A DNA stretch of 41,061 nt from an uncultured Clostridia bacterium (GTDB taxonomy: Bacteria > Bacillota > Clostridia > Lachnospirales > Lachnospiraceae), in assembly GCA_946403295.1 (NCBI GenBank), contig CAMIZL010000018.1, positions 1-41,061 on the forward strand, read 5' to 3'. Each line of letters opens with the position of its first letter. Position 1 is the stretch's first letter. A model generated the notes under the pieces. That model saw only the letters and a list, made by a program, of their open reading frames with translations, did no database searches and was not told where the DNA came from. Both the position numbers and the translations under genes were made by a program. Shown piece after piece: positions 2,711 to 41,061 of the stretch.

Positions 2711-2830
2711 ATGAAAGTGTTCGGTCCGCGTGAAAACCGGACACGGGAAAATAAAAGCGTTCGATCCGCGTGAAAACCGGGCACGGGAAAATGAAAGTGT
2801 TCGATCCGCGTGGAAACCGGGCACGGGAAA
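2711..2830 (+). repeat. 40-bp intergenic tandem repeat, 3 copies
   Basis: Units at 2711, 2751 and 2791 share AAAGTGTTCGATCCGCGTG followed by AAACCGGGCACGGGAAAA, with only a few substitutions. The array fills the gap between the divergent alarmone hydrolase and transglutaminase-like genes and ends 18 nt before the ATG at 2849, just before the ribosome binding site. Confidence 0.95.
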
Positions 2831-2848
2831 AAGAAAGAAGGTTACGAT

Positions 2849-23979: not shown

Positions 23980-23999
23980 CGAGCATCCCATGGGAAGCT
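23980..23999. other. 20-bp near-palindrome before the surface-protein gene
   Basis: GAGCATCCCATGGGAAGCTC is self-complementary except for one position on each side. It lies 33 nt before the GTG start, downstream of TTGACT/TATAAT-like boxes (about 23872-23972). It could be an operator. Confidence 0.45.
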
Positions 24000-24031
24000 C
24001 TTTTGTCATAAGGGAAACGGAGGACAAAGTA

Positions 24032-27000: not shown

Positions 27001-28219
27001 CCAGGAGGGAAGCGGCACCGCTTCCGACGTTGAGAACGAAACAGTCGAAGAAAAGAAAGACGATAAGAAAGAAACCGATAAAGAAAATGAGACATCGAAG
27101 GTTGAAACCGAGGTGATCACGAACGATGACGGCTCCACAACCACCAAGACGGTTGAGGAGAACGAGGACGGTTCAACAACCACCAAGGAAGAGACCCGGA
27201 CCTCGGACGGTACTACCGTGACCAAGGAAGAGACAGTTCTTGCAGACGGTTCGGTAGTTGCCAGGGAGGAAGAGGTTAGCACCGACGGAACAGTAACCAA
27301 GCGTGAGAAAACAAAAAACGCTCGGGGTGAAGGAACCGCAACGGTTGTCAAGGCAGATGCGGACGGCAATGTGCTCAGCGAGACACAGGAAACAACCACA
27401 GTCAACAAGAAGGGCTCGGTTACCGTTGAATCCGTGACCGAGAATGCCGACGGTTCGACTGTTGAGAGCAAGGTCAAGACAACAAAGTCCGGTAACGTGA
27501 CGGCTACGATCGTAGAGAAGGACGCTGACGGTTCCGTTACTACGACAAACGAGACGGTAAAGAATTACTCTTCGGGTACTGTTAAGACCACTACAGAGAC
27601 GGTTGAGACCGATCCCGAAGGCAATGTGATCGCAACTGTTGAAAAGACGGTCAAGGTCGCTAAGGCCGACGAAGACGGCAATACCAAGACAACAGCTACG
27701 GTTAAGTCAACCGATGCCGAGGGTAACGTAACAACAACCAAGGAAACGGTAGTTGTAGATGCCAAGGGTAAGGCAAGTGTTTCGTCCGTAACTACAAGCT
27801 CTGACGGAACCAAGGAAGAAAAGGCATTCTCCGTCTCAAGCAAGGGTACCGTTAAGATGGCCGCTCTTGAGACAAATGCCAGGGAAGTTGAGATTCCCAA
27901 GACCATCGAGGTCGGAGGAGTTGAGCGTCCCGTAACATCGATCTCCAAGAACGCCATGAAGGGCAACAAGAATGTCACAAGCGTCGAGATCGGAGAGAAC
28001 ATCACATCGATCGGCGCAGGTGCGTTTAAGAACAGCAAAAACCTTTCAACTATCGAGCTTACAGATTCGATCACCAGGATCTCGGCAAATGCTTTCAAGG
28101 GCATTGCAAAGAATGCAACCTTCAAGATCAAGGCTTCCTCTCAGGAAGAGTTTGACAGGATCGTTGCACTCCTCAAAGAATCGGGTGTAAGTGATTCGGT
28201 AACGTTCGAGATGGCATAA
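24032..28219 (+). CDS. Giant secreted surface protein: beta-helix, Ig-like modules, GSGTQE repeats, Thr-rich stalk and LRR_5 tail
   Basis: The protein has 1395 residues. GTG at 24032 is preferred because GGAGG lies 8 nt upstream; an ATG at 23990 is possible but lacks a site. A signal peptide (helix about 22-37, then AWA) is followed by a right-handed beta-helix-like region (about 45-225). Two or three repeats of an MBG/Ig-like module follow (GTYRVWYAVKG... and GTYKVWYAVKG...), with BIG2-like stretches between them. Then come ten GSGTQE hexapeptides (about 939-998), a Thr/Glu/Lys stalk of 'DGSTTTKEE' units (about 1010-1280) and a C-terminal LRR_5/BspA-like region (about 1290-1395, TSIGAGAFKNSKNLSTIEL). 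No LPXTG or sortase anchor is seen, so attachment is unclear. It is probably an adhesin-type or matrix protein. Confidence 0.82.
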   Translation: MKSTKQNNCVKKLMKQHKFKSVVALFLVFVLVMGLLPIEDATVDAWADNSQQPSNIVGVQNWEDLQSALGCDNSVIELRNNIEANWRDSALVVTGSAITIKMNNNDIDRKLSQDNKAATEAGFVLKVASGASITIIGANSGNNPGHIMGGNNIASGGAIVVESGGSLTLRDVNIGKSKASEGRGIYLEPGASLTLDGRVTMGGPLIENDSYIDIFLNGGTLRLGEQFDSRSKVYVGCDVGTKIFSEKVTDENAKAFYVYKSGKPGVRLSYDTYRNAFYLPNKVTEAPAAIAGLTYNKDDRTLITAGTASGGAIYYKNTEANSLQPDFIDASGEIAPGWVDDASRVKGQDAGTYRVWYAVKGDDSCCTVDPDYVDVEIAEAELEIEKEYTVSVVVKKQATYTVNLKPYESVTYSIPAGQSVGNYLSDIRVENNILTFSTESKEIGQEAVINLKAKKDNYKEVDVKVTVVWNIKNEQSDYFDKTEVVKEFGQDSFTNQLHNAYGKVSYRSGDESVATVDSNSGKVTIKGVGETTIYAEASGGDNFNPKTISYTLKVIKGKPVITAPEAIENLKYNRTEQTLVTAGAASNGAIFYKLGSDENTPELMVDGRVADGWTTNASAIKAKDAGTYKVWYAVKGYDGFENTDPVSIDVTIDRVETNIALSRSIEVLIEEAKQGYIVELSELDDGLLYGAPVISEDVACLISSVGVINNLVRLNTNSKPASSSAIILIPVNVTGNYKECTVTVTITASLQSDQTITFGADEVNKVYGDPSFTNKISGAETTLTYEVTSGQNVVSVADDGTITIVGIGEANISVKAAGTSKYREATASFKVKVSKADSEITKLPVAVENLKAGSEAQMLIVGGEAKGGRLLYAVSTKKDDKLDANAYTEEIPKAATAGTYYVYYMVKGDENHKNLISTDVLTVVIEAPIVEPDPVDPSGSGTQEGSGTQEGSGTQEGSGTQEGSGTQEGSGTEQGSGTQEGSGTQEGSGTQEGSGTASDVENETVEEKKDDKKETDKENETSKVETEVITNDDGSTTTKTVEENEDGSTTTKEETRTSDGTTVTKEETVLADGSVVAREEEVSTDGTVTKREKTKNARGEGTATVVKADADGNVLSETQETTTVNKKGSVTVESVTENADGSTVESKVKTTKSGNVTATIVEKDADGSVTTTNETVKNYSSGTVKTTTETVETDPEGNVIATVEKTVKVAKADEDGNTKTTATVKSTDAEGNVTTTKETVVVDAKGKASVSSVTTSSDGTKEEKAFSVSSKGTVKMAALETNAREVEIPKTIEVGGVERPVTSISKNAMKGNKNVTSVEIGENITSIGAGAFKNSKNLSTIELTDSITRISANAFKGIAKNATFKIKASSQEEFDRIVALLKESGVSDSVTFEMA
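26846..27025 (+). repeat. 18-bp tandem repeat in the surface-protein gene, 10 copies
   Basis: Units of GGAAGCGGCACCCAGGAG type encode GSGTQE. The sixth is GSGTEQ and the last GSGTAS. Synonymous changes alternate between units (GGTAGC/GGAAGC and ACC/ACT). Confidence 0.95.
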
Positions 28220-28830: not shown

Positions 28831-28916
28831 ACCGCAGTTCGAAAACCGTGCTCCCACCGGTCACTCCGTGAGATTGGGAATGGGTGATAAATACCCTGAT
28901 CAGAAAGAGAGAAAAA

Positions 28917-29933
28917 ATGGATCGGACTGACAAAACAAGATACGAAACCGTGTATTTACGTGATGAGATATCCAGATGCGAGGATGTTTTTGAGCTGAAG
29001 GAAAGGATCCTGCCGATGCTCAAAACACAGCAGGATCAGTGGAAGGATAAGATCAACGCATTGATCGGGGAAAGCGGACTCACGAAGACGCGATTGGCGG
29101 AGATGATCGGTGTAAGCAGGATGGCCGTGAATAAATGGTGTAACGGAGCTATACCGAAAAACCGTGAGACGTTCCTCCGTATCGGCATGGCTGCCGGATA
29201 TAACAGGGAGAAGATGGATCAGCTCCTGATGCGATATGGCAGATATCCGGCGTTATACGCAAAAAGCCTTGAGGATTGCGTTTGCATCTATGTGCTTGAC
29301 AAGGGCTGTAAAACAGAAACGTTACAAAACTACGATTTTATATTGAACAGGATAAAAGAAAATATCATAAGGGAAGAGTCGTCCGAGACGGAAGACATAA
29401 CCACGGAAAGATTTGACGAGAAGCTGTCGGTGGTCAGAGATGAGGATGAACTCGAAAGGTTCATAGCTGAGAACACGTCTGTTTTTGCAATGACCTATCA
29501 TAAGTTCTACGCTTATGTTAAAATGCATATCAAAGCCAATTATGAGAGCTTTGACGGCAATGTCTTTGCGCTGGCGGAGGGGCAGGAATGGTCCTCGTCC
29601 CTGAGGCAGTGCGTGTCCGCCATCAGGCAAAACAAATGGTATCCCACAAGAAACAAGATCATTTCTCTGGGACTTCATCTCTCCATGGACCACGAACAGA
29701 TAGATGAAATGCTTGAGCTCGCGCATATGGAACCGTTGTGTGCGAAAAACATATTTGAGAGCATAATCATGTTTGTTCTCGACGACGCCGACCTCAACAA
29801 TATCCTTGACGAAGGATCGGATGAATATGATCCTGATGCTCTTTGCGATTATGCCAGAGAGGTGATGGAAAAACTCGATCTTCCCGAGGTGGAATCTTTT
29901 ATCACTGAATTACCGGAGAAGTATGATGAATGA
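28917..29933 (+). CDS. HTH protein with an internal duplication, first gene of the phospho-signalling operon
   Basis: The protein has 338 residues. The ATG at 28917 follows AGAAAGAGAG; a GTG at 28884 is also possible. An XRE-like helix-turn-helix (about 55-85) reads LTKTRLAEMIGVSRMAVNKW. It is followed by ETFLRIGMAAGYNREKMDQLL and YPALYAKSLEDCVCIYVL. The C-terminal half repeats this pattern without the HTH: NKIISLGLHLSMDHEQIDEML and MEPLCAKNIFESIIMFVL. I read this as a duplication of a helical domain of about 60 residues. It may bind DNA as the local regulator or act as an adaptor. The FHA gene starts inside its last codons (11-nt overlap), indicating coupling. Confidence 0.75.
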   Translation: MDRTDKTRYETVYLRDEISRCEDVFELKERILPMLKTQQDQWKDKINALIGESGLTKTRLAEMIGVSRMAVNKWCNGAIPKNRETFLRIGMAAGYNREKMDQLLMRYGRYPALYAKSLEDCVCIYVLDKGCKTETLQNYDFILNRIKENIIREESSETEDITTERFDEKLSVVRDEDELERFIAENTSVFAMTYHKFYAYVKMHIKANYESFDGNVFALAEGQEWSSSLRQCVSAIRQNKWYPTRNKIISLGLHLSMDHEQIDEMLELAHMEPLCAKNIFESIIMFVLDDADLNNILDEGSDEYDPDALCDYAREVMEKLDLPEVESFITELPEKYDE

Positions 29934-30480
29934 TAAAAAAGCGAATAATCTGATCGTTATCGAAAACGGGCAGCTCAAAGTCTACCCGCTTGATGATAAG
30001 GTCGAGTGGGAAGTGGGAAGATCGTCACCGAACAATGTGCCCGATATCAGATTTCACTCGGTGACGGTGAGCAGAAAGCACGGAAAGTTTCAAAACATGG
30101 ACGGGATGTGGTTTTATATCGACTATAACGGTAAGAACGGGACGGTGTACAATCACAGACATTTGGAAAAAGGGCTGAGAGGGAACGTAAAGCCCGTACC
30201 CCTCGGAGACGGCGACGTATTTGTGTTCGGCGGGGGCAGGGAAGAAGTGATAAATCATAAAACGGTGTGGTGTATGTTTTGTGAAAAAGAGGTGGAAGAA
30301 AACTGGCGGGTGAACGATTCGAAGGGTTTTTCCAAATTATCTTTTGTGTCGGGCGGAAAGACCAATGTGTTTACCGGTCCCGAAAAAGGAACGGTGGTTA
30401 AAGGAGAGAACGGGATCGCTATTTATATGGGTGATCTGACCTATGTGTCGGGTGATATGCAGGTGATCGGGGAAAACTGA
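29923..30480 (+). CDS. FHA-domain protein
   Basis: The protein has 185 residues. ATG at 29923 or 29926 follows GGAG. The FHA domain (about 10-100) shows the usual phospho-threonine contacts: VGRSSPNNV, VTVSRKHGKF and NGKNGTVYNHRHLEKG. The C-terminal 80 residues, WCMFCEKEVEENWRV and a beta-rich end (GIAIYMGDLTYVSGDMQV), are not recognised. FHA domains bind phospho-Thr peptides, so this is a reader of the two downstream kinases. It overlaps the HTH gene, and kinase 1 starts 12 nt after its stop. Confidence 0.88.
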   Translation: MMNDKKANNLIVIENGQLKVYPLDDKVEWEVGRSSPNNVPDIRFHSVTVSRKHGKFQNMDGMWFYIDYNGKNGTVYNHRHLEKGLRGNVKPVPLGDGDVFVFGGGREEVINHKTVWCMFCEKEVEENWRVNDSKGFSKLSFVSGGKTNVFTGPEKGTVVKGENGIAIYMGDLTYVSGDMQVIGEN

Positions 30481-30492
30481 GGGTATAAGGAA

Positions 30493-32478
30493 ATGTTTGG
30501 TGCTGACAGGAGTGAAACGGAAAAAGTATTACTTCAGCTTGAAGATCTGTTCTTTACCGTTAACGGGGAGCAATTCGGGTTTGTAAAAAATAACGGTCAT
30601 CTATGTCTGTTGGGTACCGGCGCTACATCGAATGTTTATGAGATGTACGGCGCCACGGCACCTGACAGGCATTATGCGCTTAAAGTCATCGGTTTCGGCG
30701 ACAAAGATCCCGATCATTCCTTCGTCAGACGAGTTTTCCGGGTGCAACACGCTCTGTCCGAGCTGTCGGAAAATATCGTGAGGGTGATAGCTCTCTGGGT
30801 GATCAAACTTTCCTTTGACGAGCAGGGAAAGATCCTGAGGATCGTAAGGGACACCGAAGACGGCTTTGATGACCTTGACGGTTATCTCTTCGAAATGATA
30901 CTTATGGAAAAACTCGAAAATATCATTTCGAAAGACAGATACGGAAATGTCGAACCGCTCAGGAAAGACCTTGCGGACGAGGCAGGTGTCATAAGGTTTG
31001 CGATCGAGCTCGGAGAGGCTCTTCTTGCCGTTCACAGAAATAATTTCCTCCACAGGGATATCAAACTGGAGAATGTTTTTTGGGACGAACAAAACGGAAG
31101 ATATAAGCTTGGGGATTTTGGGATAGTGCGGGCAACAGATAACGGAAATGCCGAAACGGTCGTGTTTACGAACGGTTACGGTGCGCCCGAGATCGAGAAA
31201 AGACTGCAGGATTCATATGACATCACCGCAGACATTTATTCTTACGGGATCACTCTTTACCTTCTCTTAAACGATTTTGCTTTCCCGGGATCCGATTCAT
31301 ACAGGCCGAGCATCGTTCAATACGAGAAGGACTTTGTTTTCCCCGCGCCTAAAAACGCATCGCCCAAAATGGCGGCGATCGTCAGAAAGATGTGCAGCTA
31401 CCGCCCTTGTGACAGATACAGGTCGGTTGACGAAGTCCTGGCGCAGATCCGAGGTTTGACGGATCAGGATGATAGCGGGTCGGAAGCCTGCCCGTCGGGC
31501 AGCGTGTATGACGCGGAAGCGGAAACATATGCCGGGGATCCCGCTACGGTGACTTTTCGTGAGACAACGGTTTCCGAAGCGGACGAAGGTGAAGAAAGCG
31601 ATGAAGTTGAAGAAAGCGACGTATGGGAAGAAAGTGACAAAGTTGAAGAAAGCGACGTATGGGAAGAAAGTGACGAATACATAAGCGAAGAAGGCGTCGA
31701 TTACAACGGATACGATCTGTCCATATGGGATAAAGACGAGTCTGAACTGACATATGAAGAAAAAAAATACATGGCAGCGATCCTGAAGGAAGAATACAAC
31801 AAAAGGATGGTTCTCGAGACTGTCGTTGCGTCGCTGCTGTTCTTTCTCCTTTTCGTGTCGATGTCAAAAAGCGCCGACCGGGCGGGATCGTGGATGATAT
31901 GGACTCTGCCCGCCGTTATGGTCACGGAATGCATTTTGCAGAAGATCGGTACGTTTCACATAGGCTTCGGAATGATCTCATGCGCTCTTTATATATGGTC
32001 TGCGGTAACCCTCGGATGTGATGCGCTGCAGGTGGCCATGATATGCGTTACGCTTGTCGGATTACCGGTACTCAGCGCGGGATGCGCGGCGGGAGCCGGA
32101 CTATGGATCGCATACGCGCTTTTCGGAAATACCGGCTGGCTTTCGTTCCTGAACGAATATGAGACGGGATTCATATTCATGATCGCTCTCGCAGGGGTGT
32201 TTGCAGATCTGATCCGGCAGAAGATCTTTTACGCTGTCCCGATATCGCGGCATGACTATGCGCTCACAGCGGTGATGCTGGACATTTTGCCGTATACACT
32301 TTTCGGTGCGGGCCTTATATTGTGGATCCTGGGCCTTTTTGATATATTTTCCCTTCCTGCGGTGGAAAGTATACATCCCGTCAAGACAGGGATCGGGATA
32401 TTCATTGTAAAAATTTTATTTAATTGGCAGATCGGAAAGATTAAAGAATTATTAACGGAGGAAATAAATCATAAATAG
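30493..32478 (+). CDS. Membrane Ser/Thr protein kinase 1
   Basis: The protein has 661 residues. The kinase domain (about 35-322) is complete: glycine loop LLGTGATSNVY (39-49), Lys64 in YALK, HRDIKLEN (187-194), DFG (208-210) and APE (231-233). A linker (about 325-420) contains acidic 12-residue repeats EESDEVEESDVW. The C-terminal part (about 440-645) has about six membrane helices instead of the usual single helix and PASTA domains. It should phosphorylate Thr/Ser in the cytoplasm. AAGGA precedes the ATG. It is in an operon with FHA readers and a PP2C eraser. Confidence 0.92.
   Translation: MFGADRSETEKVLLQLEDLFFTVNGEQFGFVKNNGHLCLLGTGATSNVYEMYGATAPDRHYALKVIGFGDKDPDHSFVRRVFRVQHALSELSENIVRVIALWVIKLSFDEQGKILRIVRDTEDGFDDLDGYLFEMILMEKLENIISKDRYGNVEPLRKDLADEAGVIRFAIELGEALLAVHRNNFLHRDIKLENVFWDEQNGRYKLGDFGIVRATDNGNAETVVFTNGYGAPEIEKRLQDSYDITADIYSYGITLYLLLNDFAFPGSDSYRPSIVQYEKDFVFPAPKNASPKMAAIVRKMCSYRPCDRYRSVDEVLAQIRGLTDQDDSGSEACPSGSVYDAEAETYAGDPATVTFRETTVSEADEGEESDEVEESDVWEESDKVEESDVWEESDEYISEEGVDYNGYDLSIWDKDESELTYEEKKYMAAILKEEYNKRMVLETVVASLLFFLLFVSMSKSADRAGSWMIWTLPAVMVTECILQKIGTFHIGFGMISCALYIWSAVTLGCDALQVAMICVTLVGLPVLSAGCAAGAGLWIAYALFGNTGWLSFLNEYETGFIFMIALAGVFADLIRQKIFYAVPISRHDYALTAVMLDILPYTLFGAGLILWILGLFDIFSLPAVESIHPVKTGIGIFIVKILFNWQIGKIKELLTEEINHK
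31591..31680 (+). repeat. 36-bp tandem repeat in kinase 1, 2.5 copies
   Basis: Units at 31591, 31627 and 31663 (partial) encode EESDEVEESDVW-type acidic segments between the kinase and membrane domains. The period is divisible by three. Confidence 0.88.
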
Positions 32479-32498
32479 AAGGAGAAGGTAGGAGGATA

Positions 32499-32534
32499 AT
32501 GGATGGGGCAAACATTACATTTTGTGGTCAATAA
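32499..32534 (+). CDS. Possible 11-residue leader peptide before kinase 2
   Basis: AGGAGGATAATG gives a near-ideal ribosome site, but the frame reads only MDGANITFCGQ before a stop. It ends 29 nt before the kinase 2 start and is in another frame. It could be a leader that couples translation, or a remnant of an older start. Confidence 0.25.
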   Translation: MDGANITFCGQ

Positions 32535-32563
32535 GTATACTGAAACTGAGGAAGAAAAGAACG

Positions 32564-34324
32564 ATGATCCGATGGACGAGTGACGAAATAGAAAATATTC
32601 TGAACCGCCTTGACGAAATGGGATTGCCTTTCGGTAAGGGGTATGAATTCTCCCGCGAAAACGGAAGACTAAAAAGGATCGGGCAGGGCGGTTTCGCTTA
32701 CGTATACGAGATGTGTTCCCGTCGTTTCGGGAAGAAGCCGTATGCATTGAAGATCCTCGGTTTTTCGGATACACATGCCGACTCCGAGATCTTTAAAGAT
32801 GAAGTATCCGTTCAAAACAGCGTAGCCCTTTTTAGTTATCAGGAAAGTAAAAATGTCGTGAAGATCAGTGATCATACCGAGTTGTGGCTTATATTCGGCG
32901 AAGAGGATGATCTGATCTCGGTTGAAAGGGAAAAGCCGGAAAAAATGCCGCGAAACTGCATAAAGCTGCAATTTGTGCTTATGGAGAGGCTTACACCCGT
33001 GATCGGGCGGAATCTGTCGGGGGTTCCCGTCGTAACACCCGAAGCGCTTGCGGGGGGTGACGAAAAAGAGATCATAAAGATCGCACTTCATATCGGAACG
33101 GCTTTAAAGCTCTCTCATGAAAGGAAGGTGCTTCACCGGGACGTGAAGCTCGAAAATGTTTTTTATTCGGAGAAAGAAAAAAAATATAAACTCGGTGATT
33201 TCGGAATAGCAAAACAAACTGAGGACGGATTCGCGGGTACGAGGGCATTTACATACGGATATGCCGCGCCCGAAGTGAGAGGAACTCCGGGAAATGACAG
33301 ATACGATCACACCGCCGATATTTATTCCTTCGGAATGATGCTTTATGTTTTAGCCAACAAACTGAGGTTCCCCGATTCGAAATCATACAGTGTCAATTCC
33401 GAAGCGCAATATAAAAAAGGCTACGTGGTACCCGTACCCGACAATGAGAGTATATCTCCCGAATTCTATAAGATAATCGCAAAAGCCTGCATGTACGATC
33501 CGGCTGACCGCTATCAGTCCATGAAAGAAATGCTGGCTGACATAGAAGCTCTCAAATTTCCCGAAAAGATACGGTACAGGGTGAAAAATAAGAATCAAAT
33601 TCTTGTCGCGGGTAATGCACTTCTTGTGATCGGGATCATAGCATGGAAGCTTATATTGGCACCGAACCTTGAACCCGATATGTCGTTTGCGGAATACCTT
33701 TTTCTCGCAGGTTGCATCGGAAAGGGAGTACTTAACTATCTGAAAAGAAAACAAGGTCTTGTAGATTTCGTGATGTTCTGTATCGGAGTATATCTGCTGT
33801 CCTCGACGGGCTTTTCGTGGGTGATGCTTTTAGTCATGCTTTGGATGGTCCTTTCGAGCGGGGTGTCCTCGGGATATGTCGGAGGCTGTGTCCTGCTGGC
33901 AGATCTGGTCGCCCGGATGCAACGGTTGACCGGAGCGGCGATGGATGTGAATGCCGGTCAGGGATGGATAGCGATCACTCTCATATCGGTATCCGTGATC
34001 CTTTTATACGAATATGTTCTGATATCGGTGACGGATATCGGGCAGAATGGTTTCAAGTGGTACATAAAGGGTGTATACAGAGCCATTTATGCGCTCTTTT
34101 ATATCTTCTGCATAATGTGCGGGGCTATGGAAGGAGTTTCTTCGAAATCATTGTCGAAGTTGTTCGGGGCACGGATAGCGGACATGATCATGAGCGTCGA
34201 CCTTCTTAAAGTAGGTGTTGCCGGACTGGTGTTTTGTGCGATCTGGACCATCGGTGAAAAGGTTGAAAAAAGGCGTAAAAGAGTTGACCCCGGGGATGGG
34301 CACGGGAACATCCCGCAAATGTAA
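32564..34324 (+). CDS. Membrane Ser/Thr protein kinase 2
   Basis: The protein has 586 residues. ATG 32564 follows GAGGAAGAAAAG; the upstream TTG at 32522 is rejected. The kinase domain (about 30-332) is complete: RIGQGGFAYVYEM (38-50), Lys63 in YALK, HRDVKLEN (191-198), GDFG (211-214) and AAPE (234-237). The C-terminal half (about 345-565) has seven or eight membrane helices, with no PASTA or sensor domain outside. It is paralogous to kinase 1 in the kinase core (both have 'HRD.KLENVF....KYKLGDFGI') but has a distinct membrane part. It follows kinase 1 by 85 nt, and an internal regulatory box lies between it and the J-domain gene. Confidence 0.92.
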   Translation: MIRWTSDEIENILNRLDEMGLPFGKGYEFSRENGRLKRIGQGGFAYVYEMCSRRFGKKPYALKILGFSDTHADSEIFKDEVSVQNSVALFSYQESKNVVKISDHTELWLIFGEEDDLISVEREKPEKMPRNCIKLQFVLMERLTPVIGRNLSGVPVVTPEALAGGDEKEIIKIALHIGTALKLSHERKVLHRDVKLENVFYSEKEKKYKLGDFGIAKQTEDGFAGTRAFTYGYAAPEVRGTPGNDRYDHTADIYSFGMMLYVLANKLRFPDSKSYSVNSEAQYKKGYVVPVPDNESISPEFYKIIAKACMYDPADRYQSMKEMLADIEALKFPEKIRYRVKNKNQILVAGNALLVIGIIAWKLILAPNLEPDMSFAEYLFLAGCIGKGVLNYLKRKQGLVDFVMFCIGVYLLSSTGFSWVMLLVMLWMVLSSGVSSGYVGGCVLLADLVARMQRLTGAAMDVNAGQGWIAITLISVSVILLYEYVLISVTDIGQNGFKWYIKGVYRAIYALFYIFCIMCGAMEGVSSKSLSKLFGARIADMIMSVDLLKVGVAGLVFCAIWTIGEKVEKRRKRVDPGDGHGNIPQM

Positions 34325-34363
34325 ACTTACAGTGAAAAAAGAGCCCGTAAACCGTTGTAAAAT
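34319..34363 (+). promoter_or_regulatory. Shared regulatory box, copy 2, with a -10-like TAAAAT
   Basis: ATGTAAACTTACAGTGAAAA at 34319-34338 matches the box at 28414 in 18 of 20 bases. TAAAAT at 34358-34363 starts 39 nt after its first base, the same distance as in copy 1. It overlaps the end of kinase 2 and lies 59 nt before the J-domain gene, suggesting an internal promoter under the same control. Confidence 0.55.
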
Positions 34364-34422
34364 ACAGGAGAAACAGATAATATTAATACATGCGGTTTAA
34401 CGCATAAAAGGAGGATAAAAAA

Positions 34423-35319
34423 ATGTTTTGGATCATTGTTGTGTTGGTAGTGGTGCTGGTTGTTCTCTTTAAATTGGGTATTTTCCGCAAGCCCGGTGTA
34501 TGTAAGTGCTGCGGAAAGAATATCAAGGGAACGGAACAGGTCGTTTTTAACGGCTCGAGTGAGAGATTCATACTTTGCAAAGAGTGTGCGGCAAAGATAC
34601 ATCCGCAGATAATGAAATATGCAAAAGATAACTGGAGTTATGAAGATTACACGACATATCTTGCATGGGACGAAGCAACAAGGGAAGAAAGAGCGGCATT
34701 TAAGCCTACGAATACCTATGGCTACAATTCCGCACTGATGGTAGATATGGAGCACGGTCTCTTCACGCTCGGCAAGAGCAGGATCTTTAAGGAAAACGAA
34801 AACGGACTTGTGCTCAGATTCGCCGATGTCAACGATTTCGACATCGATTTCAAGCCCGAACAGGTTAAGGAAGGTCTTATCAGCGACAAAGCGACCGGAA
34901 CGGAATATGCGATGGTCGAGATGGCCTGCCCCAGAGTCGTGATCGAGGAAACACTTAATGCCTCGGCAAAATACAGGCTTAAGCAGAAGGGATTCTTCAG
35001 CTCTCATTATTCTTATGAGATAAAGGGAGCCTTTCTTGATATCATTCAGGAGTTTACTTTCTGCCTTTGGATCGAAGAAGCAAAACAGAGCGGTAACGTG
35101 ACCGAAGAAAACCAGAACTTTGATGAAGTACAAAAGGCTCTTGCACTCTTTATGTTTGACAGTATGGCCGATGTTACGGAAGACAACCTTAAGAAGCAGA
35201 GAAACAGCCTTATAAAGGCATTCCATCCCGACGGAGGAGAGGATAATGCTTCATATGCGCAGAAGATCAATACGGCATATGATCTGTTGTTCAGTCTTGT
35301 CAGAAATAAAGAGGGGTAA
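34423..35319 (+). CDS. Membrane-anchored zinc-ribbon (DUF4428-like) protein with C-terminal J domain
   Basis: The protein has 298 residues. An N-terminal membrane helix (about 2-18) is followed by a zinc ribbon (CKCCGKNI ... LCKEC, about 26-53, DUF4428-like), a middle beta-rich domain (about 95-225) and a J-domain-like tail (about 250-298) with KQRNSLIKAFHPDGGEDNASYAQKINTAYDLL. The HPD triplet at 267-269 is intact, so it could stimulate an Hsp70 ATPase or another partner. J domains with HPD are known to recruit DnaK. Here it may link the membrane to the ClpB-like AAA+ protein; that is inference. AAGGAGG precedes the start. Confidence 0.82.
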   Translation: MFWIIVVLVVVLVVLFKLGIFRKPGVCKCCGKNIKGTEQVVFNGSSERFILCKECAAKIHPQIMKYAKDNWSYEDYTTYLAWDEATREERAAFKPTNTYGYNSALMVDMEHGLFTLGKSRIFKENENGLVLRFADVNDFDIDFKPEQVKEGLISDKATGTEYAMVEMACPRVVIEETLNASAKYRLKQKGFFSSHYSYEIKGAFLDIIQEFTFCLWIEEAKQSGNVTEENQNFDEVQKALALFMFDSMADVTEDNLKKQRNSLIKAFHPDGGEDNASYAQKINTAYDLLFSLVRNKEG

Positions 35320-35321
35320 AA

Positions 35322-36767
35322 ATGAGTAGCGGTATCGTTGATGATGTGATGGTAGTGCCTGCGGTAGGACTGGCGATAGCCGAAGTTGCCGGCCTCGCCG
35401 TGCGGGGAGCAGTGAAAGTTGCCGGAGTCATTACCGAAAATCTCGCAAGCGGTATTTCCGATGTTATTGCGCAGATGCGCGAAGAAAACCGGCAGCGGCT
35501 CGAGCTTGAACGTGAATGGATCGAAGATCTGAGCAAAGAGAGAGATCAGGCATTTAATGACATAAACGCCTATATATCAAGCCTTAACAAGCTCTCGGAA
35601 AGCGATGACAGATTGTTCGCCGCTTCCGGTGTGAATGAAGCGAAGGAAAAAGCAAAGAGCATAATAAATAAGCGTGAAAACGTTGTAAGAAAGATCAGGC
35701 AACTCCGTGAGCAGGCCGTTAAGAGCAAAAATGTCGATGAGATCGAAGCCTGCGCCGAACAGGCGAAGCTTTTGTTCGACGGCTTGAACGGCAGCCTTCA
35801 TGAAGAGCTTGTGTTTTTCGGCAAGAACGGAGTGAAACTGCCTGAATACGGAAGCATGCACGAGGACGCTGTCAGGATGGCGATCACCAAACACCACGAT
35901 GTTTTCAACGTGGTGCTTAAGACCACGGCGCAGGACAATGCCGGACAGGTGGTCACCGAATCCATGCTCAGGTACGATTTTGCGGTATTTGAAGACAGTC
36001 TGTCGGAATTATTGTGCGTTGAGGGGCTTAACGACCGTCAGGTGAGAGACATTCTCGCGGTCAAATCGGAGCTTCAAAAGATCAGCAACGATGACGGACT
36101 GGTCCCCGAGATCAAGAAGAAAAGACTTGCCACCCTGTTTGATATATATTCGAGAAGACGACGGGCGATCCTGTCGGAGCATAAGGAGATGGCGGAATAT
36201 TATTCGCAATATCTTGACGTAACATGCGATATTCCGGAGGAAAGGATCGAGATGTCCGATTTCGATTCCCTGGATCAGCTCGCAGAAGTGCTCGAAAAAG
36301 CCGAGGCTGACAGACTGGAAAGACTTAAAAAGCAATATGTCAGGATTCAGATGGACCGTGTTATGAAAAAGCACGGTCTGAATGTCGTTGAATCGGCAGT
36401 CATGAACCGAAAGGAAGACGACAAGAGAGTTCTGTACGGTATAGACGATACGACTGCGGTCGACGTCCTTATTTCGGATCAGGGAACGGTTGCAACAAGG
36501 GTTGTCGGGATCAACTTCGGAGGGACTCCTTCCAAAAATGATGAAAAAGAACTTGTGAAGAAGGAACACAGCTTTTGCAGCAAGATGGCTGCCATCGAGC
36601 AGGATCTCGAAGATCTCGGTATCATCATGAGAAGAAAGAAGACACTTCCGCCCGACGAAGAATTCAGTACCTGGATAAAACTCGACGAAACCGTGAAGAC
36701 GGATAAGAAAAACATCAACCGCAAGAGAAAACGTCAAACAGGCGGAAAAGTAATGTATATGGAGTGA
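35322..36767 (+). CDS. Coiled-coil protein of unknown function in the signalling operon
   Basis: The protein has 481 residues. The N-terminus (about 5-45) is Ala/Val/Gly-rich and may touch a membrane. From about 45 to 375 it is charged and strongly helical, with heptad-like stretches (REENRQRLELEREWIEDLSKERDQ and EKAEADRLERLKKQYVRIQMDRVMKK). The C-terminal part (about 385-440) is a small beta-containing segment (VDVLISDQGTVATRVVGINFGG). The last residues are basic (NRKRKRQTGGK). No family is recognised. The start is 2 nt after the previous stop and the next gene starts 4 nt later, so it is a fixed member of the operon. It could be a scaffold or kinase substrate. Confidence 0.75.
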   Translation: MSSGIVDDVMVVPAVGLAIAEVAGLAVRGAVKVAGVITENLASGISDVIAQMREENRQRLELEREWIEDLSKERDQAFNDINAYISSLNKLSESDDRLFAASGVNEAKEKAKSIINKRENVVRKIRQLREQAVKSKNVDEIEACAEQAKLLFDGLNGSLHEELVFFGKNGVKLPEYGSMHEDAVRMAITKHHDVFNVVLKTTAQDNAGQVVTESMLRYDFAVFEDSLSELLCVEGLNDRQVRDILAVKSELQKISNDDGLVPEIKKKRLATLFDIYSRRRRAILSEHKEMAEYYSQYLDVTCDIPEERIEMSDFDSLDQLAEVLEKAEADRLERLKKQYVRIQMDRVMKKHGLNVVESAVMNRKEDDKRVLYGIDDTTAVDVLISDQGTVATRVVGINFGGTPSKNDEKELVKKEHSFCSKMAAIEQDLEDLGIIMRRKKTLPPDEEFSTWIKLDETVKTDKKNINRKRKRQTGGKVMYME

Positions 36768-36771
36768 TCAT

Positions 36772-37497
36772 ATGAGCTGGGAATGTCCGAAATGCTATTT
36801 TATTAACGATGACGATGACAAGATCTGCGCTATGTGCAGTGAGCCGCGCGAAACGATACCGGAACCGAAGGCTCCGGCGCCGGCCGCAACGGTCAACGCT
36901 CCGGCAGTCGGACCGGAGATCGCGGATGAGGGAACAAACATCCCCACCGCCAAAAACGAACCCGTGAGTTATTTTATTTCTTGTCCCACAAGCGGTTACA
37001 AAACGGTCGTTGATTCTCCCGATGTGACCGAATATTTCTGCAAGGGATGCGGTGAGATACATCCCGTCGACAATGTTCTTTGGATAGTTGAGAAAGAAGT
37101 CGCACAGGCCACGGCCGCTCCCGCTGCGTCAGTTTCCGAAACGACCGGTGTGTCAGCCGGCACAGCAGGAACCGTGGAAAATAACGGCGGTATATTGGTG
37201 CTCGAGGATGTCGATACGCATTTCCGTATCGAGATCGACAAAGCAGGCGGAACGATCGGAAGATACGGTAAATACGGAGCCGCATATTTTCAATCCGATC
37301 CGAGGGGCAGGATGGTCTCCGGAGAGCATTGCAGGATCAAGTATGAGTACACAAAATGGAGCATCGAGCATCTGAGCAGAACGAACGATACCGTATATAA
37401 CGGCAGAAAGCTTGAACATGGCTTTGAGGAGGGCCTCCGGGACGGAAAGACGCTGACCCTCGCAAATGCCATGACTTTCTTGATAAGGATACTCTGA
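36772..37497 (+). CDS. RanBP2-type zinc finger plus FHA-domain protein
   Basis: The protein has 241 residues. The first residues, SWECPKCYFINDDDDKICAMC, exactly fit W-x-C-x2-C-x3-N-x6-C-x2-C of the RanBP2 zinc finger, a fold best known from eukaryotes. An Ala/Pro linker and a second Cys set (YFISC ... FCKGCGE, about 67-91) follow. The C-terminal FHA domain (about 140-241) has GTIGRYG, VSGEHCRIKY and NDTVYNGRKLEHG. It is the second phospho-Thr reader of the operon. The fingers may bind another protein or RNA; that is inference. The next gene starts 1 nt after its stop. Confidence 0.85.
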   Translation: MSWECPKCYFINDDDDKICAMCSEPRETIPEPKAPAPAATVNAPAVGPEIADEGTNIPTAKNEPVSYFISCPTSGYKTVVDSPDVTEYFCKGCGEIHPVDNVLWIVEKEVAQATAAPAASVSETTGVSAGTAGTVENNGGILVLEDVDTHFRIEIDKAGGTIGRYGKYGAAYFQSDPRGRMVSGEHCRIKYEYTKWSIEHLSRTNDTVYNGRKLEHGFEEGLRDGKTLTLANAMTFLIRIL

Positions 37498-37498
37498 T

Positions 37499-38065
37499 AT
37501 GTATGTTGAAAGGATCCTTTGTCCGATCGTAACGCTCGGTCCGAACAAAAGACTGGTGCTTTGGACAAAGGGATGCACAAAGGCCTGCAAGGGCTGCATA
37601 AGCCCGGAAATGGCCGACACGGGCGACGCGAAACCTGTCGCCGTGAGCGAGATCTACCGGATCATAGAAAATGTATTTAAAAGCGAAGGATTTGAGGGAG
37701 TGACCATAAGCGGAGGCGACCCGTTCGAACAGCTTCCCGAACTTCTGGAACTTGTAAAGATGCTTCGCCGTATAACGGATGATATTTTGGTTTATACCGG
37801 ATTTGTATGGGACGAATTCTCGAAGACACTTTCGCCGGAGACGATCGATGATATCACGCGTAACATAAGCGTTCTTATCGACGGACCGTATATTCCCGAA
37901 AGGAACAAAAGTGGGCTGGCGCTGCGGGGATCCGACAACCAAAATATCATTTTCTTTGACGCCGGAAAAAAGAAGGTATACGAAGATTACATCAAAAACG
38001 GAAGAACGTTGCAAAATGTATATATGGACGACAAGGTGATCGTGGTCGGGATCCTTGACAGATAA
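37499..38065 (+). CDS. NrdG-like 4Fe-4S radical-SAM activase homologue
   Basis: The protein has 188 residues. The iron-sulfur motif CTKACKGC (C-x3-C-x2-C) binds a single 4Fe-4S cluster. VTISGGDPFEQLPELLELVKML and LVYTGFVWDEF match the SAM-binding and following strands of NrdG-type activases, which generate a glycyl radical on the anaerobic ribonucleotide reductase. No nrdD-like reductase is in the window and the gene is embedded between FHA and AAA+ genes. It may therefore activate or modify another protein, or was recruited as a redox sensor; both are inference. The start ATG follows the previous stop by 1 nt. A short spacer separates it from the AAA+ gene. Confidence 0.88.
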   Translation: MYVERILCPIVTLGPNKRLVLWTKGCTKACKGCISPEMADTGDAKPVAVSEIYRIIENVFKSEGFEGVTISGGDPFEQLPELLELVKMLRRITDDILVYTGFVWDEFSKTLSPETIDDITRNISVLIDGPYIPERNKSGLALRGSDNQNIIFFDAGKKKVYEDYIKNGRTLQNVYMDDKVIVVGILDR

Positions 38066-38103
38066 ACATGAGCCCCTGAAAAAGGGCAAAGGGAGGATAA
38101 AAA

Positions 38104-39969
38104 ATGGCGAAGAGCAATTTGCCGAAATGGCAGCAGGAGATATCAAGCTTCAAAGGTATCAAGAGTACTTTTATCATCGAAGGGAACATAAATGATATTT
38201 ATCCTTACTATATGGTCGGATCGGAAGAGAGCATGCCTGTTTCCTTCGTCGATATGAGCGCGGTCCTGCTCCGTTTGTTTAACGAAAAGCAGAACGAAAA
38301 CGAATATGATTTTGTTTTTTGCGATCCCGCAACGGGATTTCATAACAAGTTCGGCGACCGTTTCGGAAACGTTGAGGAGTTTTGCGCCAGATACAGCAAT
38401 ACGGATAGGGATAAATTACCTTTCGGCGCCGACAGGCTCTTCAAAAAGACATGCAAGGTAGATGACATCGAGACGGTATCGAACGTCATCCGCAATGCCA
38501 TTGTCGATACGGAGAGACAAAAGCCCATAGCGGTCGTGCTTAATTTCGCGTCCAGATATATTTCGTCTCCCCAAAATCTCGATCCCGACGAAAGCAAGCT
38601 TTTCCTGAACCTTCTTGTTTCCTCCGTCAACGCGGCCAGGATCAACGATTCCTACAATACGCTCGTTCTGGTAGTGGAAAAATTCAATGACCTTCCGGCG
38701 TGGTTTTTCTATAACAATCCCAATGTGAGGACCATATCGATCCCGAATCCGGACAAAGATATGAGAAGCACATTCATTGACAAGGAATACAACGAATTTC
38801 AGGAAAATCCCGAGCTTCTGAAGATCAGGGAAAAATTCATCGACCAGACCGACGGTCTCAAGAACAGGGAGCTCAGAGAACTTCATGCTCTGTACAAGAG
38901 GCTCAGGAACAAGGATGCCTCCATGGAGCTTCTCGATACGCTTTCGATCTATAAATACGGTATCCTTGACAATATGTGGCACTCCATAGACAAGACAAAG
39001 ATAGACAATCTTGAGGATCTCCTTAAGAAGAGAGTCATCGGTCAGGACCGTGCGGTATCAAAGACCGTTAATATCGTAAAGAGGGCAGTATCGGGTCTTT
39101 CCGGCATGCAGCATTCGTCGGGAAGCAACAAACCCAGAGGCGTTCTGTTTTTCGCGGGCCCTACGGGAACCGGAAAAACAGAGCTCACAAAGGCGCTTGC
39201 GGAGCAGTTGTTCGGCGATGAGAACAATTGCATAAGATTCGATATGAGTGAATATTCGGAGGGTCATGCCGATCAGAAGCTCTTTGGCGCGCCTCCCGGA
39301 TATGTCGGATACGAAGCCGGCGGTCAGCTCACGAACGCGATCAAGGAAAAGCCTTTTTCGATACTTCTTTTTGATGAGATAGAAAAGGCTCACCCCTCGA
39401 TAATGGACAAATTCCTACAGATCCTTGAGGACGGCCGTATGACGGACGGCCAGGGAAATACGGTTTATTTCTCGGAAACGCTCATAATCTTTACGAGCAA
39501 TCTCGGTATCGTGAGACAATTTGTGGACAGTACGGGCAGAGAAAGACGTGAACAGCTTGTAAGCCCCGAGGAAACGTATGAAGAGATCAACCCGAAAGTA
39601 ATAGATGCGATCAGGAACCATTTTAAACCCGAGGTTTTGAACAGGATCGGAAATAACATAATCGTCTTCGATTTTATCCGCGAAGAAGCTTCCAAACGTA
39701 TTGTTGAATCGCAGATAGAGAAGATAAACGGACGTGTTTTGAAACAGAACAAATTAAACATCTCGGTCGCAAACGAAGTTAAGGAATATTTTTGCGATCT
39801 TGCCGTCCGGCCCGAGGTCAGGGAAATGGGCGGCCGCGGGATCGGTAACCTGATGGAGGACAAATATATAAATCCGTTGTCGGAATTTATATTCGAAGCA
39901 GGTTGCGGTGAGGGCGATACGGTTTCGGCAACGATCGAAAACGGCGAGCTTAAATTTTTAAAGCAGTAA
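38104..39969 (+). CDS. ClpA/B-type AAA+ ATPase with a P-loop-less AAA-like N-terminal half
   Basis: The protein has 621 residues. The C-terminal half (about 300-610) is a ClpB D2-like module: VIGQDRAV, Walker A GPTGTGKTE (352-360), Walker B LLFDEIEKAHP (421-431), pore loop GYVGYEAGG (399-407), sensor-1 FTSNLG, arginine finger EVLNRI and sensor-2 GGRGIGN. The N-terminal half (1-290) has FIIEGNINDIYPYY, PIAVVLNFASRY and LPAWFFYNNPNVRTISIPNPDKDMR, which look like a degenerate AAA fold without Walker A or an acidic Walker B. No ClpP-binding loop is evident. It should unfold or disassemble protein complexes using ATP. GGGAGG precedes the start. Confidence 0.9.
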   Translation: MAKSNLPKWQQEISSFKGIKSTFIIEGNINDIYPYYMVGSEESMPVSFVDMSAVLLRLFNEKQNENEYDFVFCDPATGFHNKFGDRFGNVEEFCARYSNTDRDKLPFGADRLFKKTCKVDDIETVSNVIRNAIVDTERQKPIAVVLNFASRYISSPQNLDPDESKLFLNLLVSSVNAARINDSYNTLVLVVEKFNDLPAWFFYNNPNVRTISIPNPDKDMRSTFIDKEYNEFQENPELLKIREKFIDQTDGLKNRELRELHALYKRLRNKDASMELLDTLSIYKYGILDNMWHSIDKTKIDNLEDLLKKRVIGQDRAVSKTVNIVKRAVSGLSGMQHSSGSNKPRGVLFFAGPTGTGKTELTKALAEQLFGDENNCIRFDMSEYSEGHADQKLFGAPPGYVGYEAGGQLTNAIKEKPFSILLFDEIEKAHPSIMDKFLQILEDGRMTDGQGNTVYFSETLIIFTSNLGIVRQFVDSTGRERREQLVSPEETYEEINPKVIDAIRNHFKPEVLNRIGNNIIVFDFIREEASKRIVESQIEKINGRVLKQNKLNISVANEVKEYFCDLAVRPEVREMGGRGIGNLMEDKYINPLSEFIFEAGCGEGDTVSATIENGELKFLKQ

Positions 39970-40107
39970 TGCGATGCTTATGTAGCAAAGCAGTAACGCG
40001 ATGCTTATTTAGCAAAGCAGGGGACGTAAATTTGAAAAGCAGTTACGCGATGTTTATGTAGCAAAGCACTTGCGCGATGCTTATTTAACACAACAGGGGA
40101 CGTAAAT
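39961..40107 (+). repeat. 76-bp intergenic repeat, 2 copies, duplicating the AAA+ stop region and the PP2C ribosome site
   Basis: The unit from 39961 recurs at 40037. Each contains two shorter sub-repeats (GCAGTAACGCGATGCTTATT and variants) and ends in CAGGGGACGTAAAT. The first copy contains the stop codon of the AAA+ gene. The second provides GGGGA, the ribosome binding site for the PP2C start at 40106. Confidence 0.9.
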
Positions 40108-40867
40108 GTACAGATATGCTGCTTATACGGACAAGGGTCCGGTACTTGAAGTAAACGACGACCGTGTTGCGGTCGGAAACGAGATAACGGGAAACGGCGG
40201 TTTCTCGGGGGTCACGGATGAACCGGTGATATTTGCGGGTGTCGCAGACGGGGTCGGAGGTCTTTCGCGGGGATATGAAGCCGCGGAAATAACGCTCAGG
40301 ACATTGACCGCGATCAACAAACCGGGGGTCGAAAGGACCGGGATCACCGACAGTATCGAGAAGGCAAACAGGATCATACGGTCAAGACAGACGGAACTGA
40401 ATATCGAAGACGGTCTGAGGACCACCCTGGCGGCGATCTATATCGACAACGATGTTCTGTTTGTGATAAATGCCGGTGACAGCCGTGTGTACAGACTGCG
40501 GGACGGCCGCCTTGAACAGCTTTCAAAGGATCATTCGGTAGTCCAGAATTATATCGACACCGGAAAAATAACCGAGGAAGAGTCATATGATCATCCCAAA
40601 CGTAACGTGATCACAAAATGTATCGGCGATGAAGATCGTGTGAACGCGAGGATCATAGATCTTTCGGGAAGTCTTCGCGATAACGATATGTTCATGCTCT
40701 GCTCCGACGGGATCTCGGACTGCATCAGAACGCCGGAAGCTGAACAATTGTTTATGTCCGGGGAAAACGACGATCTCGGGCACATATGCCGCAGTTTCGT
40801 TCAAAAAGCAATAGAAAACGGAAGTACCGATAATATAAGTATTTGTCTTGTCAGGAGGGAAAACTGA
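40106..40867 (+). CDS. PP2C-family protein phosphatase
   Basis: The protein has 253 residues. The metal and catalytic motifs are intact: VNDDRVAV (motif 1 Asp), VADGVGG (about 46-52), INAGDSRVYRL, DHSVV, RNVITKCIG, LCSDGISD (about 198-205) and STDNISICLV near the end. PP2C enzymes remove phosphate from Ser/Thr using Mn2+/Mg2+, so this is the eraser opposite kinases 1 and 2. GGGGA in the adjacent repeat gives the ribosome site. The next gene starts 1 nt after the stop, with AGGAGGG inside this gene, which indicates co-expression. Confidence 0.93.
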   Translation: MYRYAAYTDKGPVLEVNDDRVAVGNEITGNGGFSGVTDEPVIFAGVADGVGGLSRGYEAAEITLRTLTAINKPGVERTGITDSIEKANRIIRSRQTELNIEDGLRTTLAAIYIDNDVLFVINAGDSRVYRLRDGRLEQLSKDHSVVQNYIDTGKITEEESYDHPKRNVITKCIGDEDRVNARIIDLSGSLRDNDMFMLCSDGISDCIRTPEAEQLFMSGENDDLGHICRSFVQKAIENGSTDNISICLVRREN

Positions 40868-40868
40868 G

Positions 40869-41061
40869 ATGGGAGATTACGAGCACATTCCTACAATGCC
40901 GCAGGCACCGGCTGAGAGCGGTCATATCCCTACGATGCCGCAGGCATCCCTTGAGAGCGGTCATATTCCCACGATGCCGCAGGCACCCCTTGAAAGCGGT
41001 CATATCCCTACAATGCCGCAGGCACCGGCTGAGAGCGGTCATATCCCTACGATGCCGCAGG
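40869..41061 (+). CDS. Start of a Thr/Pro-repeat protein (runs off the window)
   Basis: Only the first 64 codons are visible. ATG 40869 follows AGGAGGG with good spacing. After MGDYE, a 13-residue unit HIPTMPQAPAESG is repeated (fifth copy cut by the window end). Each unit has one Thr flanked by Ile-Pro and Met-Pro. Such repeats could be phosphorylated and bound by the FHA proteins of the operon, as in other FHA/kinase pairs. That is inference. What follows the repeats cannot be seen. Confidence 0.75.
   Translation, partial: MGDYEHIPTMPQAPAESGHIPTMPQASLESGHIPTMPQAPLESGHIPTMPQAPAESGHIPTMPQ
40884..41061 (+). repeat. 39-bp tandem repeat in the last gene, at least 4.5 copies
   Basis: Units begin at 40884, 40923, 40962, 41001 and 41040 (CATATYCCTACRATGCCGCA, then GGCAYCCSYTGARAGCGGT). 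The period is exact and divisible by three. The array continues past the window. Confidence 0.93.

Follow-up and report, generated by a model that had tools for sequence, protein, structure and literature searches.

FHA domains bind phosphothreonine with a preference at the +3 position, type VI secretion is regulated by PpkA, PppA, Fha and ClpV, and Mokosh systems have an MkoA-type helicase as their hallmark. As described in two papers, ternary conflict systems, among them those of the vWA-MoxR type, have an AAA+ core and modular effectors, in some cases with kinases, FHA proteins, PP2C phosphatases and radical-SAM proteins (PMC7159879), and the mobile KKP systems, for which an anti-phage role has been reported, have Ser/Thr kinases, PP2C and FHA acting together as a PP2C and two short kinases (900–1300 bp) with fused FHA/CSD (PMC11341870). 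The locus described here lies on contig C18 (41,061 bases) of the 2.39-Mb, 65-contig genome of an uncultured Clostridia bacterium; the entire contig was analyzed and is called the window. Its last genes, from 35322 to the contig end and referred to as unit B, comprise a coiled-coil protein (CC), a zinc-ribbon FHA protein (zinc-FHA), a radical-SAM protein, a tandem AAA+ protein, a PP2C phosphatase and a truncated open reading frame (ORF), most likely that of a kinase. We report that unit B is a widespread conserved cassette and discuss what it may do.

Results

A conserved six-gene cassette

When one genome of each GTDB species was scanned with an AAA+ profile, 572 relatives were returned, the best 80 of which were retained and mapped, L012 replacing L040, which is the same contig. 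Neighbors were counted on the same strand up to 8 kb from the AAA+ gene by means of family models made from these same loci, the FHA and kinase labels being broad enough to label also the window's upstream FHA protein (FHA1) and kinases (K1 and K2). Among these best 80 of 572, which include the near copies L028/L029 and L043/L050, CC was found in 50, FHA in 51, radical SAM in 51, PP2C in 41 and a kinase in 40. Adequate flanks, meaning that the contig extends over 5 kb upstream and over 3 kb downstream of the AAA+ gene, were available for 46 of the 80 loci, 15 of which carry either the AAA+ gene with DUF4236 only or a solitary AAA+ gene. The other 31 well-flanked loci contain CC (29), FHA (31), radical SAM (30), PP2C (25) and a kinase (29), and all six genes are present in 23 of these 31 informative loci. 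Searching 291 class genomes separately provided three further loci, L146, L148 and L149 (L145 and L147 were not counted as independent of L053 and L031), of which L148 has the six genes and L146 five of them. A preliminary description of the window had named the co-conservation of the AAA+, radical-SAM and zinc-FHA genes as a check, and these genes are indeed conserved together across many genomes.

The labels of the loci span ten phyla, with six-gene sets on contigs labeled Bacillota, Bacteroidota, Ignavibacteriota, Myxococcota and Armatimonadota and partial sets labeled Pseudomonadota, Chloroflexota, Actinomycetota and Krumholzibacteriota; these are labels of metagenome-assembled genomes and may be wrong, the Muribaculaceae locus L028 being almost identical to the Blautia locus L029 on the AAA+ tree. 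Presence is patchy: relatives occur in 3 of the 200 genomes of the family and, at 120 bits or more, in 6 of the 291 genomes of the class, the window's own genome included. Around the two Clp loci of this genome, none of the eight families tested was found except AAA itself.

A probable third kinase at the contig end

The ORF starting at 40870 had been taken for a separate gene encoding a Thr-repeat protein, but it most likely encodes the start of a third kinase (K3), its N-terminal tail, rather than a substrate of its own. Its repeat has a period of 39 nt and 4.4 copies in the window and is 83% identical to C54:1-139, on another contig of the same genome, where the ORF spans 2.2 kb or more, matches Pkinase with 84.7 bits and is itself followed by a gene for a protein with nine membrane-like segments (counted, as throughout, by crude hydropathy). 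K3 probably continues at C54:1-2250, and the repeat would explain why the assembly breaks at the end of C18. The closest relatives point the same way: in L026–L030 and L032, whose AAA+ proteins are 71–74% identical to that of the window, the common order is CC, zinc-FHA, radical SAM, AAA+, PP2C and a kinase with the same repeats (its ORF is split in L032), and then a protein of cluster c13 or c46. The c13/c46 proteins tested (L026 and L028) have eight membrane-like segments; because the C54 membrane protein had no sequence match among the relatives' loci by tblastn, it is likened to them by position and kind.

Threonine repeats in the kinase tails

Threonine repeats in the kinase tails are lineage-specific. 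The motif IPTMPQ occurs in 3–10 copies in 7/7 window-type loci and is absent from every other ORF of these loci, T-x-I/L/V-N is found in 14/14 loci (1–4 copies) and ATQ/E-V/I-DEGW in 2/2, while ETVTV, TEYMP and TVLSS were read by eye in other tails; since the loci were grouped by eye, these counts illustrate and do not test. A shuffle test was applied to 35 of 46 kinases, the others being 2 window controls, 6 not recognized by the catalytic pattern and 3 with tails too short, and the tail was taken to end 120 residues ahead of the catalytic motif. Thr-centered self-similarity exceeded that of the shuffles at p<0.01 in 22/35 tails and at p<0.05 in 29/35 (uncorrected), and neither K1 (p=0.512) nor K2 (p=0.974, frame from 32522) has a Thr-repeat tail by this test. 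The cassette kinases inspected, among them those that escaped the first pattern, have an H-x-D-type catalytic motif; pattern matching revealed no DFG-like motif in L058, L092, L101 and L104. The potential reader carries CxxC within its first 150 residues in 54/55 FHA-labeled genes. Repeated Thr sites, the feature on which we judged FHA–kinase docking, are thus present in the kinase tail, and we infer that the zinc-FHA protein may bind the tail of K3.

A tandem AAA+ protein

The AAA+ protein appears to combine a degenerate first domain (D1) with a ClpB-like second domain (D2). In 55 aligned sequences, the Walker A, Walker B, sensor 1, arginine finger and sensor 2 residues of D2 are invariant; the strongest hits in the PDB are ClpB and ClpC, which align with approximately residues 260–605. 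In the same alignment D1 has no Walker A and keeps a lid-like segment; in its G-N-x-x-D motif G27 and D31 are invariant and N28 nearly so, and P198, P216 and R221 are also invariant. The D1 profile matches the N-terminal part of five class-genome proteins (22–30 bits), and the three that were fetched (L150–L152, class Clostridia) are Cdc48-like tandem AAA proteins. Profile–profile comparison aligns D1 with their N-terminal domains over 217 columns (96.9% probability, E 1.7e-10) and poorly with their canonical second domain (7% probability, 73 columns); against solved structures it gave no significant match, the hits falling mostly on the sensor/lid region of VCP and FtsH-like proteins. On this indirect evidence, D1 is probably a degenerate AAA domain akin to the degenerate first domain of Cdc48-like proteins. 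The earlier label of ClpB-type AAA+ protein does not hold, for by full-length models the protein is neither ClpB nor ClpV; the ClpB chaperone model TIGR03346 gives 293 bits for a cut-off of 1232 and matches residues 294–618 only.

Radical-SAM and coiled-coil proteins

CxxxCxxC is present in 54/54 labeled radical-SAM genes, whose nearest named family is NrdG, yet the window protein scores 99.6 bits with the NrdG activase model TIGR02491 (cut-off 126.1). That this gene could be the host's working NrdG, serving the anaerobic ribonucleotide reductase within a cassette that tunes nucleotide supply, is in our view very improbable: it is the genome's best Fer4_12 match and no NrdG-like ORF was seen in the 6 kb around NrdD (L156 1351-3744, G000 C5), but its score stays below the NrdG cut-off and the genome holds four other Fer4_12 matches, of which the one on C43 follows a pyruvate-formate-lyase-like ORF.

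CC begins with MSG or MSSG in nearly all cases. Among 29 aligned sequences M1 and S2 are nearly invariant and the C-terminal domain contains one invariant Cys; [M/V/L]S[S/G] occurs within the first 70 residues in 44/50 and SGPK in 33/50. In the PDB it matches, for the most part, proteins that are coiled-coil or helical, with a best E of 0.0022.

Four plasmid records and L013, which resembles an integrative and conjugative element (ICE), associate a helicase, a protein in or near the CC position, identified by that position, the AAA+ gene and the radical-SAM gene, and gave no separate kinase, FHA or PP2C match. Because they are what is left in these forms, the AAA+ protein, the radical-SAM protein and the CC-position partner look like an executive core, and the kinase, FHA and PP2C, having no separate genes there, look like a control layer.

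Neighboring genes and mobility

Members of one superfamily 1 (SF1) helicase family lie near the AAA+ gene on the same strand in 11/80 loci, some of which are cut by locus ends. The L073 helicase has DUF4011, helicase and MTES_1575 nuclease domains and matches the PADLOC models PDC-S37 (1259 bits) and Hhe (570 bits), and that of L107, from a Moellerella plasmid, matches MkoA (340 bits). Helicase-nucleases of this sort are typical of anti-phage defense. L106, on a plasmid of Aristaeella lactis, is another cassette of the helicase type. In plasmid and ICE-like forms the helicase occurs with a PIN protein or fused to a kinase and a nuclease, as in L108 (14479-20739, Rhizobium plasmid), where a 2086-residue fusion of Ser/Thr kinase, DUF4011/SF1 helicase and MTES_1575 adjoins the AAA+ and radical-SAM genes. 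Downstream of L012 lie PglZ (893 bits), GmrSD and, by reading of the translation, a WYL-type regulator.

Plasmid records covering at least 80% of the AAA+ query number 16. Five plasmid records were opened, of which three belong to the 16 and two have a lower listed coverage; the helicase stands in the same gene row as the cassette in 5/5, and transposase, integrase or ArdA genes are nearby in 4/5. No E. coli copy of the Moellerella plasmid cassette was found at the megablast level. A phage-borne module was rejected, as none of the 113 matching phage records reaches 80% coverage of the AAA+ protein, and the matches listed (15 of the 113) start at residue 230 or later.

FtsK-type genes were found in 6/80 loci and HerA-type genes in 3/80, and two of these loci have differing toxin-like proteins in the same slot between the AAA+ and HerA genes: in L087 (11790-13289) the C terminus is ADP-ribosyltransferase-like, below the cut-off, and in L097 (11808-13715) it is a WHH nuclease, above the cut-off. 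The FtsK- and HerA-type genes and such variable ends, together with the set of kinase, FHA, PP2C and Clp-type ATPase that recalls the type VI regulators, would suit a control or assembly module of a toxin-delivery machine of the type VI or type VII kind. We nevertheless regard this as unlikely, for TssB is missing from the window's genome, the TagH and ClpV models score far below their cut-offs, and no FtsK gene was seen in the window subtype.

The upstream genes as a separate unit

Upstream of unit B, the genes in the order HTH-FHA-kinase-kinase (28917-34324; HTH, helix-turn-helix) form unit A and are followed by a gene for a J-like protein. In a tblastn search of 82 loci of AAA+ relatives (79 loci of the profile scan, L012, L013 and the own contig C54), the HTH, FHA1 and J-like proteins had no match and K1 and K2 matched as kinases only, with at most 44% identity in the rows shown; in the same search AAA+ was matched in 81 loci, radical SAM in 52, PP2C in 40, CC in 25 and zinc-FHA in 11. 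Conversely, HTH relatives at E 1e-30 or better occur in 6 of 199 other family genomes, none of which is among the AAA+ N-half matches of the family search, and the six loci, once opened, showed FHA1 adjoining in 3/6, a kinase in 5/6, and no match for CC, zinc-FHA, radical SAM, AAA+ or PP2C. One of them, L132 (409-9743), has the HTH-FHA-kinase-kinase order of the window about 2.3 kb after an HSP70 gene. The J-like gene has only partial matches, in 11 other family genomes.

Since HTH-FHA-kinase stands without unit B elsewhere and neither HTH nor FHA1 is matched in the 82 loci, we consider 28917-34324 a separate unit. HTH, FHA1 and J are not companions of unit B, and for this reason the single conserved eleven-gene system first proposed is rejected; two adjacent units take its place, with the upstream genes outside unit B. 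Their shared strand, the J-like gene ending 2 nt before unit B and the phospho-signaling genes throughout could still speak for one working system made of both units in this organism, which the 82 loci lacking HTH, FHA1 and J and the six genomes with unit A relatives outside the AAA+ matches make quite improbable.

Gene layout of the window

The features of both units are collected in Table 1, with genes delimited by simple ORF calling. As previously described, ten complete genes and one truncated gene run on the + strand from 28917 to the contig end; the spacing then given, mostly 0–100 nt gaps or overlaps, fits the junctions, which run from an 11-nt overlap to 98 nt except for the AAA+/PP2C gap of 136 nt. 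The family calls stand above the Pfam cut-offs for FHA (twice), Pkinase (twice), Fer4_12 with Radical_SAM, AAA_2 with ClpB_D2-small, PP2C and HTH_3, and the matches to the J domain and to the zinc finger, although present, remain below theirs. The J-like protein and CC each have one N-terminal membrane-like segment.

Table 1. Features between position 28917 and the end of the window
Feature	Unit	Position	Strand	Evidence
XRE-type HTH protein	A	28917..29933	+	HTH_3 26 bits, cut-off 23; GTG start possible at 28884
FHA protein (FHA1)	A	29923..30480	+	FHA 47.9 bits
Membrane Ser/Thr kinase K1	A	30493..32478	+	Pkinase 103 bits; 5 transmembrane-like segments
Membrane Ser/Thr kinase K2	A	32564..34324	+	Pkinase 112 bits (frame from 32561); 6 transmembrane-like segments
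Membrane-anchored Zn/J-like protein	Unsure	34423..35319	+	DnaJ 17.2 bits, cut-off 27.8
Coiled-coil protein (CC)	B	35322..36767	+	No Pfam family over cut-off; N-terminal MSSG
Zinc-ribbon FHA protein (putative reader)	B	36772..37497	+	FHA 32.1 bits; Zn_ribbon_RanBP 15.8 bits, cut-off 27
Small NrdG-like radical-SAM protein	B	37499..38065	+	Fer4_12 104 bits
Tandem AAA+ protein	B	38104..39969	+	AAA_2 177 bits; D1 ~1-290, D2 ~296-607
Imperfect direct DNA repeats, AAA+/PP2C gap		39951..40107	+	Periods 27 and 76 nt
PP2C phosphatase (putative eraser)	B	40106..40867	+	PP2C 42.4 bits; Stp1/IreP 165.6 bits, cut-off 230
Start of third Ser/Thr kinase K3 (most likely)	B	40870..41061	+	Five IPTMPQ copies; contig end cuts ORF

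The repeats of the AAA+/PP2C gap include a duplicated GGGGACGTAAAT ahead of the PP2C start. Short in-frame repeats were also read from the translations of other window genes, MADGRDVG-like, GEGVTSG-like and GSGTQE-like (356-2041, 2810-4033 and 23990-28219), as if the host genome readily expanded coding repeats. The first 28 kb of the window look like ordinary chromosome, with four tRNAs and, by reading of translations, cysteinyl-tRNA synthetase-, RNase III- and rRNA-methyltransferase-like genes, a MATE gene, an ABC transporter and a large repetitive surface protein. Elsewhere in this genome (C23 26843-27040, L004; L016 6493-11541), a long protein (open frame of 1691 residues) has an FHA domain and a match to the FtsK model; we take it to be EssC-like, possibly marking a type VII locus.

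Discussion

The genomic company of unit B, its mobility and its domains make it plausible, if somewhat short of an even chance, that the cassette is a mobile conflict module, probably directed against phages or plasmids and run by a phosphothreonine switch; the defense label rests on that company and that mobility. Judging from the repeats and domains, K3 would autophosphorylate its N-terminal repeat tail, the zinc-FHA protein would bind the multiple phosphothreonine sites and PP2C would reset them. The resulting assembly on the tail may recruit CC together with the tandem AAA+ motor. In this motor the first ring, being inactive, would hold a partner that the ClpB-like second ring would thread or remodel. 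The NrdG-like enzyme might activate a partner by modifying it; CC is the most likely target, because the AAA+ protein, the radical-SAM protein and a CC-position protein persist together in the plasmid and ICE-like forms. The output would come from an effector encoded next door. Some relatives would use a helicase-nuclease or a helicase with PIN in this role, others FtsK/HerA together with toxin-like genes, and for the window subtype the polytopic membrane protein that follows K3 is the probable candidate. The preliminary remark that effectors are not visible therefore stands for the genes seen of the window subtype and not for some relatives, beside which likely effectors are found.

Several observations weigh against a switch-controlled conflict module. 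The window is flanked upstream by housekeeping-like genes, the link of C18 to C54 is our own proposal, and no helicase or nuclease is among the genes seen of the window subtype. Six tails (L031, L041, L052, L056, L090 and L101) do not exceed shuffles at 0.05, CC models do not match the CC-position protein of the proteobacterial plasmid forms and of L013, and a scan of viral contigs with the D1 profile confirmed 0 of 189 pattern matches. L149 has the AAA+ and radical-SAM genes only. Twenty DUF4236-only loci (L059, L061, L062, L064, L065, L066, L069, L070, L071, L072, L074, L076, L077, L079, L080, L081, L082, L084, L086 and L094), defined by having none of the five remaining cassette genes up to 8 kb away on the strand of the AAA+ gene, whether the flank is full or not, form one clade (SH-aLRT 100) on a quick, midpoint-rooted AAA+ tree with several long branches. 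Because this clade is nested among cassettes that also carry DUF4236, its members look like a stripped derivative. Four further loci have AAA+ alone, two of them on short contigs; the other two, L098 and L100, have none of the other five genes despite full flanks. With the DUF4236-only clade, these two suggest that the motor can exist without the switch.

Part of this evidence would fit a regulated machine for stress response or envelope maintenance, in which a membrane complex is remodeled by an AAA+ unfoldase under the control of the kinase/FHA/PP2C switch, and the helicases beside other copies are passengers of genomic islands with no relation to it. The DUF4236-only clade in Clostridia, the polytopic membrane protein after K3 in a subtype with no helicase seen, the unit A relative near HSP70 in one genome and the J-like gene between the units all agree with it, and the patchy presence and the helicases, on the same strand near AAA+ in 11/80 loci and in the same row in 5/5 plasmid records, do not; on balance we find it rather doubtful.

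Beyond the conflict module itself, we propose more tentatively that the cassette may represent a new class of conflict platform, found in many phyla, in which a self-scaffolding kinase with a multivalent phosphothreonine tail assembles a complex of FHA, coiled-coil and tandem AAA+ proteins, armed by a radical-SAM modification and fitted with effectors as varied as helicase-nucleases, PIN, FtsK/HerA with toxins, and membrane proteins. If so, bacteria would combine reversible Ser/Thr phosphorylation, multivalent FHA docking and radical-SAM modification to arm an AAA+ machine against invaders; to our knowledge, these enzyme classes do not occur together in any one defense system. Further loci could be searched for by the joint occurrence of a Thr-repeat kinase tail, zinc-FHA, an NrdG-like protein and a tandem AAA+ protein, and the target of an orphan family of NrdG-like enzymes would become testable.

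Comparison with described systems

The locus had been set apart from type VI secretion from the outset, and our searches agree: the sheath protein TssB (PF05591), the only structural family searched, is absent from the genome, with a positive E. coli control, TagH gives 31 bits with zinc-FHA and 14.4 with FHA1 for a cut-off of 120, and ClpV gives 234 bits for a cut-off of 885. TerD, TerY-P and vWA-MoxR systems were also rejected, since TerD was not found in the genome and Pfam detected no vWA among the ten window proteins; a MoxR match remained below threshold (14.6 bits, cut-off 27). The same ten proteins include neither PglZ, the marker sought for BREX/Pgl and seen beside one relative (L012), nor an MkoA-type helicase as in Mokosh, the kinases matching MkoA with 73 and 77 bits over the kinase part only. 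KKP was discarded because here PP2C is followed by one kinase, of at least 2.2 kb in C54, with FHA on its own gene.

No description of the six-gene set was found in the literature searched, outside of which lie most subscription journals and all preprints, and the set of AAA+, radical-SAM and phosphothreonine genes, a combination not recognized at first inspection either, looks undescribed. PADLOC has no match for the coiled-coil, FHA or radical-SAM proteins of the window, while the helicases tested beside cassettes (L073, L107 and L108) fall in or near its Mokosh, Hhe and PDC-S37 models. The accessible portion of the account of ternary conflict systems (PMC7159879) does not describe the six-gene set, and the KKP text is without the words AAA and radical SAM (PMC11341870). 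Unlike KKP, the cassette has its FHA as a separate zinc protein and a kinase with a Thr-repeat tail. It shares with type VI secretion a kinase, a phosphatase, an FHA protein and a Clp-type ATPase, but its own AAA+ protein seems to be made of a degenerate D1 and a ClpB-like D2. With ClpB and ClpC this protein has in common a D2 with Walker A/B, arginine finger and D2-small domain, and it differs from them in a first domain that appears akin to the one, likewise degenerate, at the N terminus of Cdc48-like proteins.

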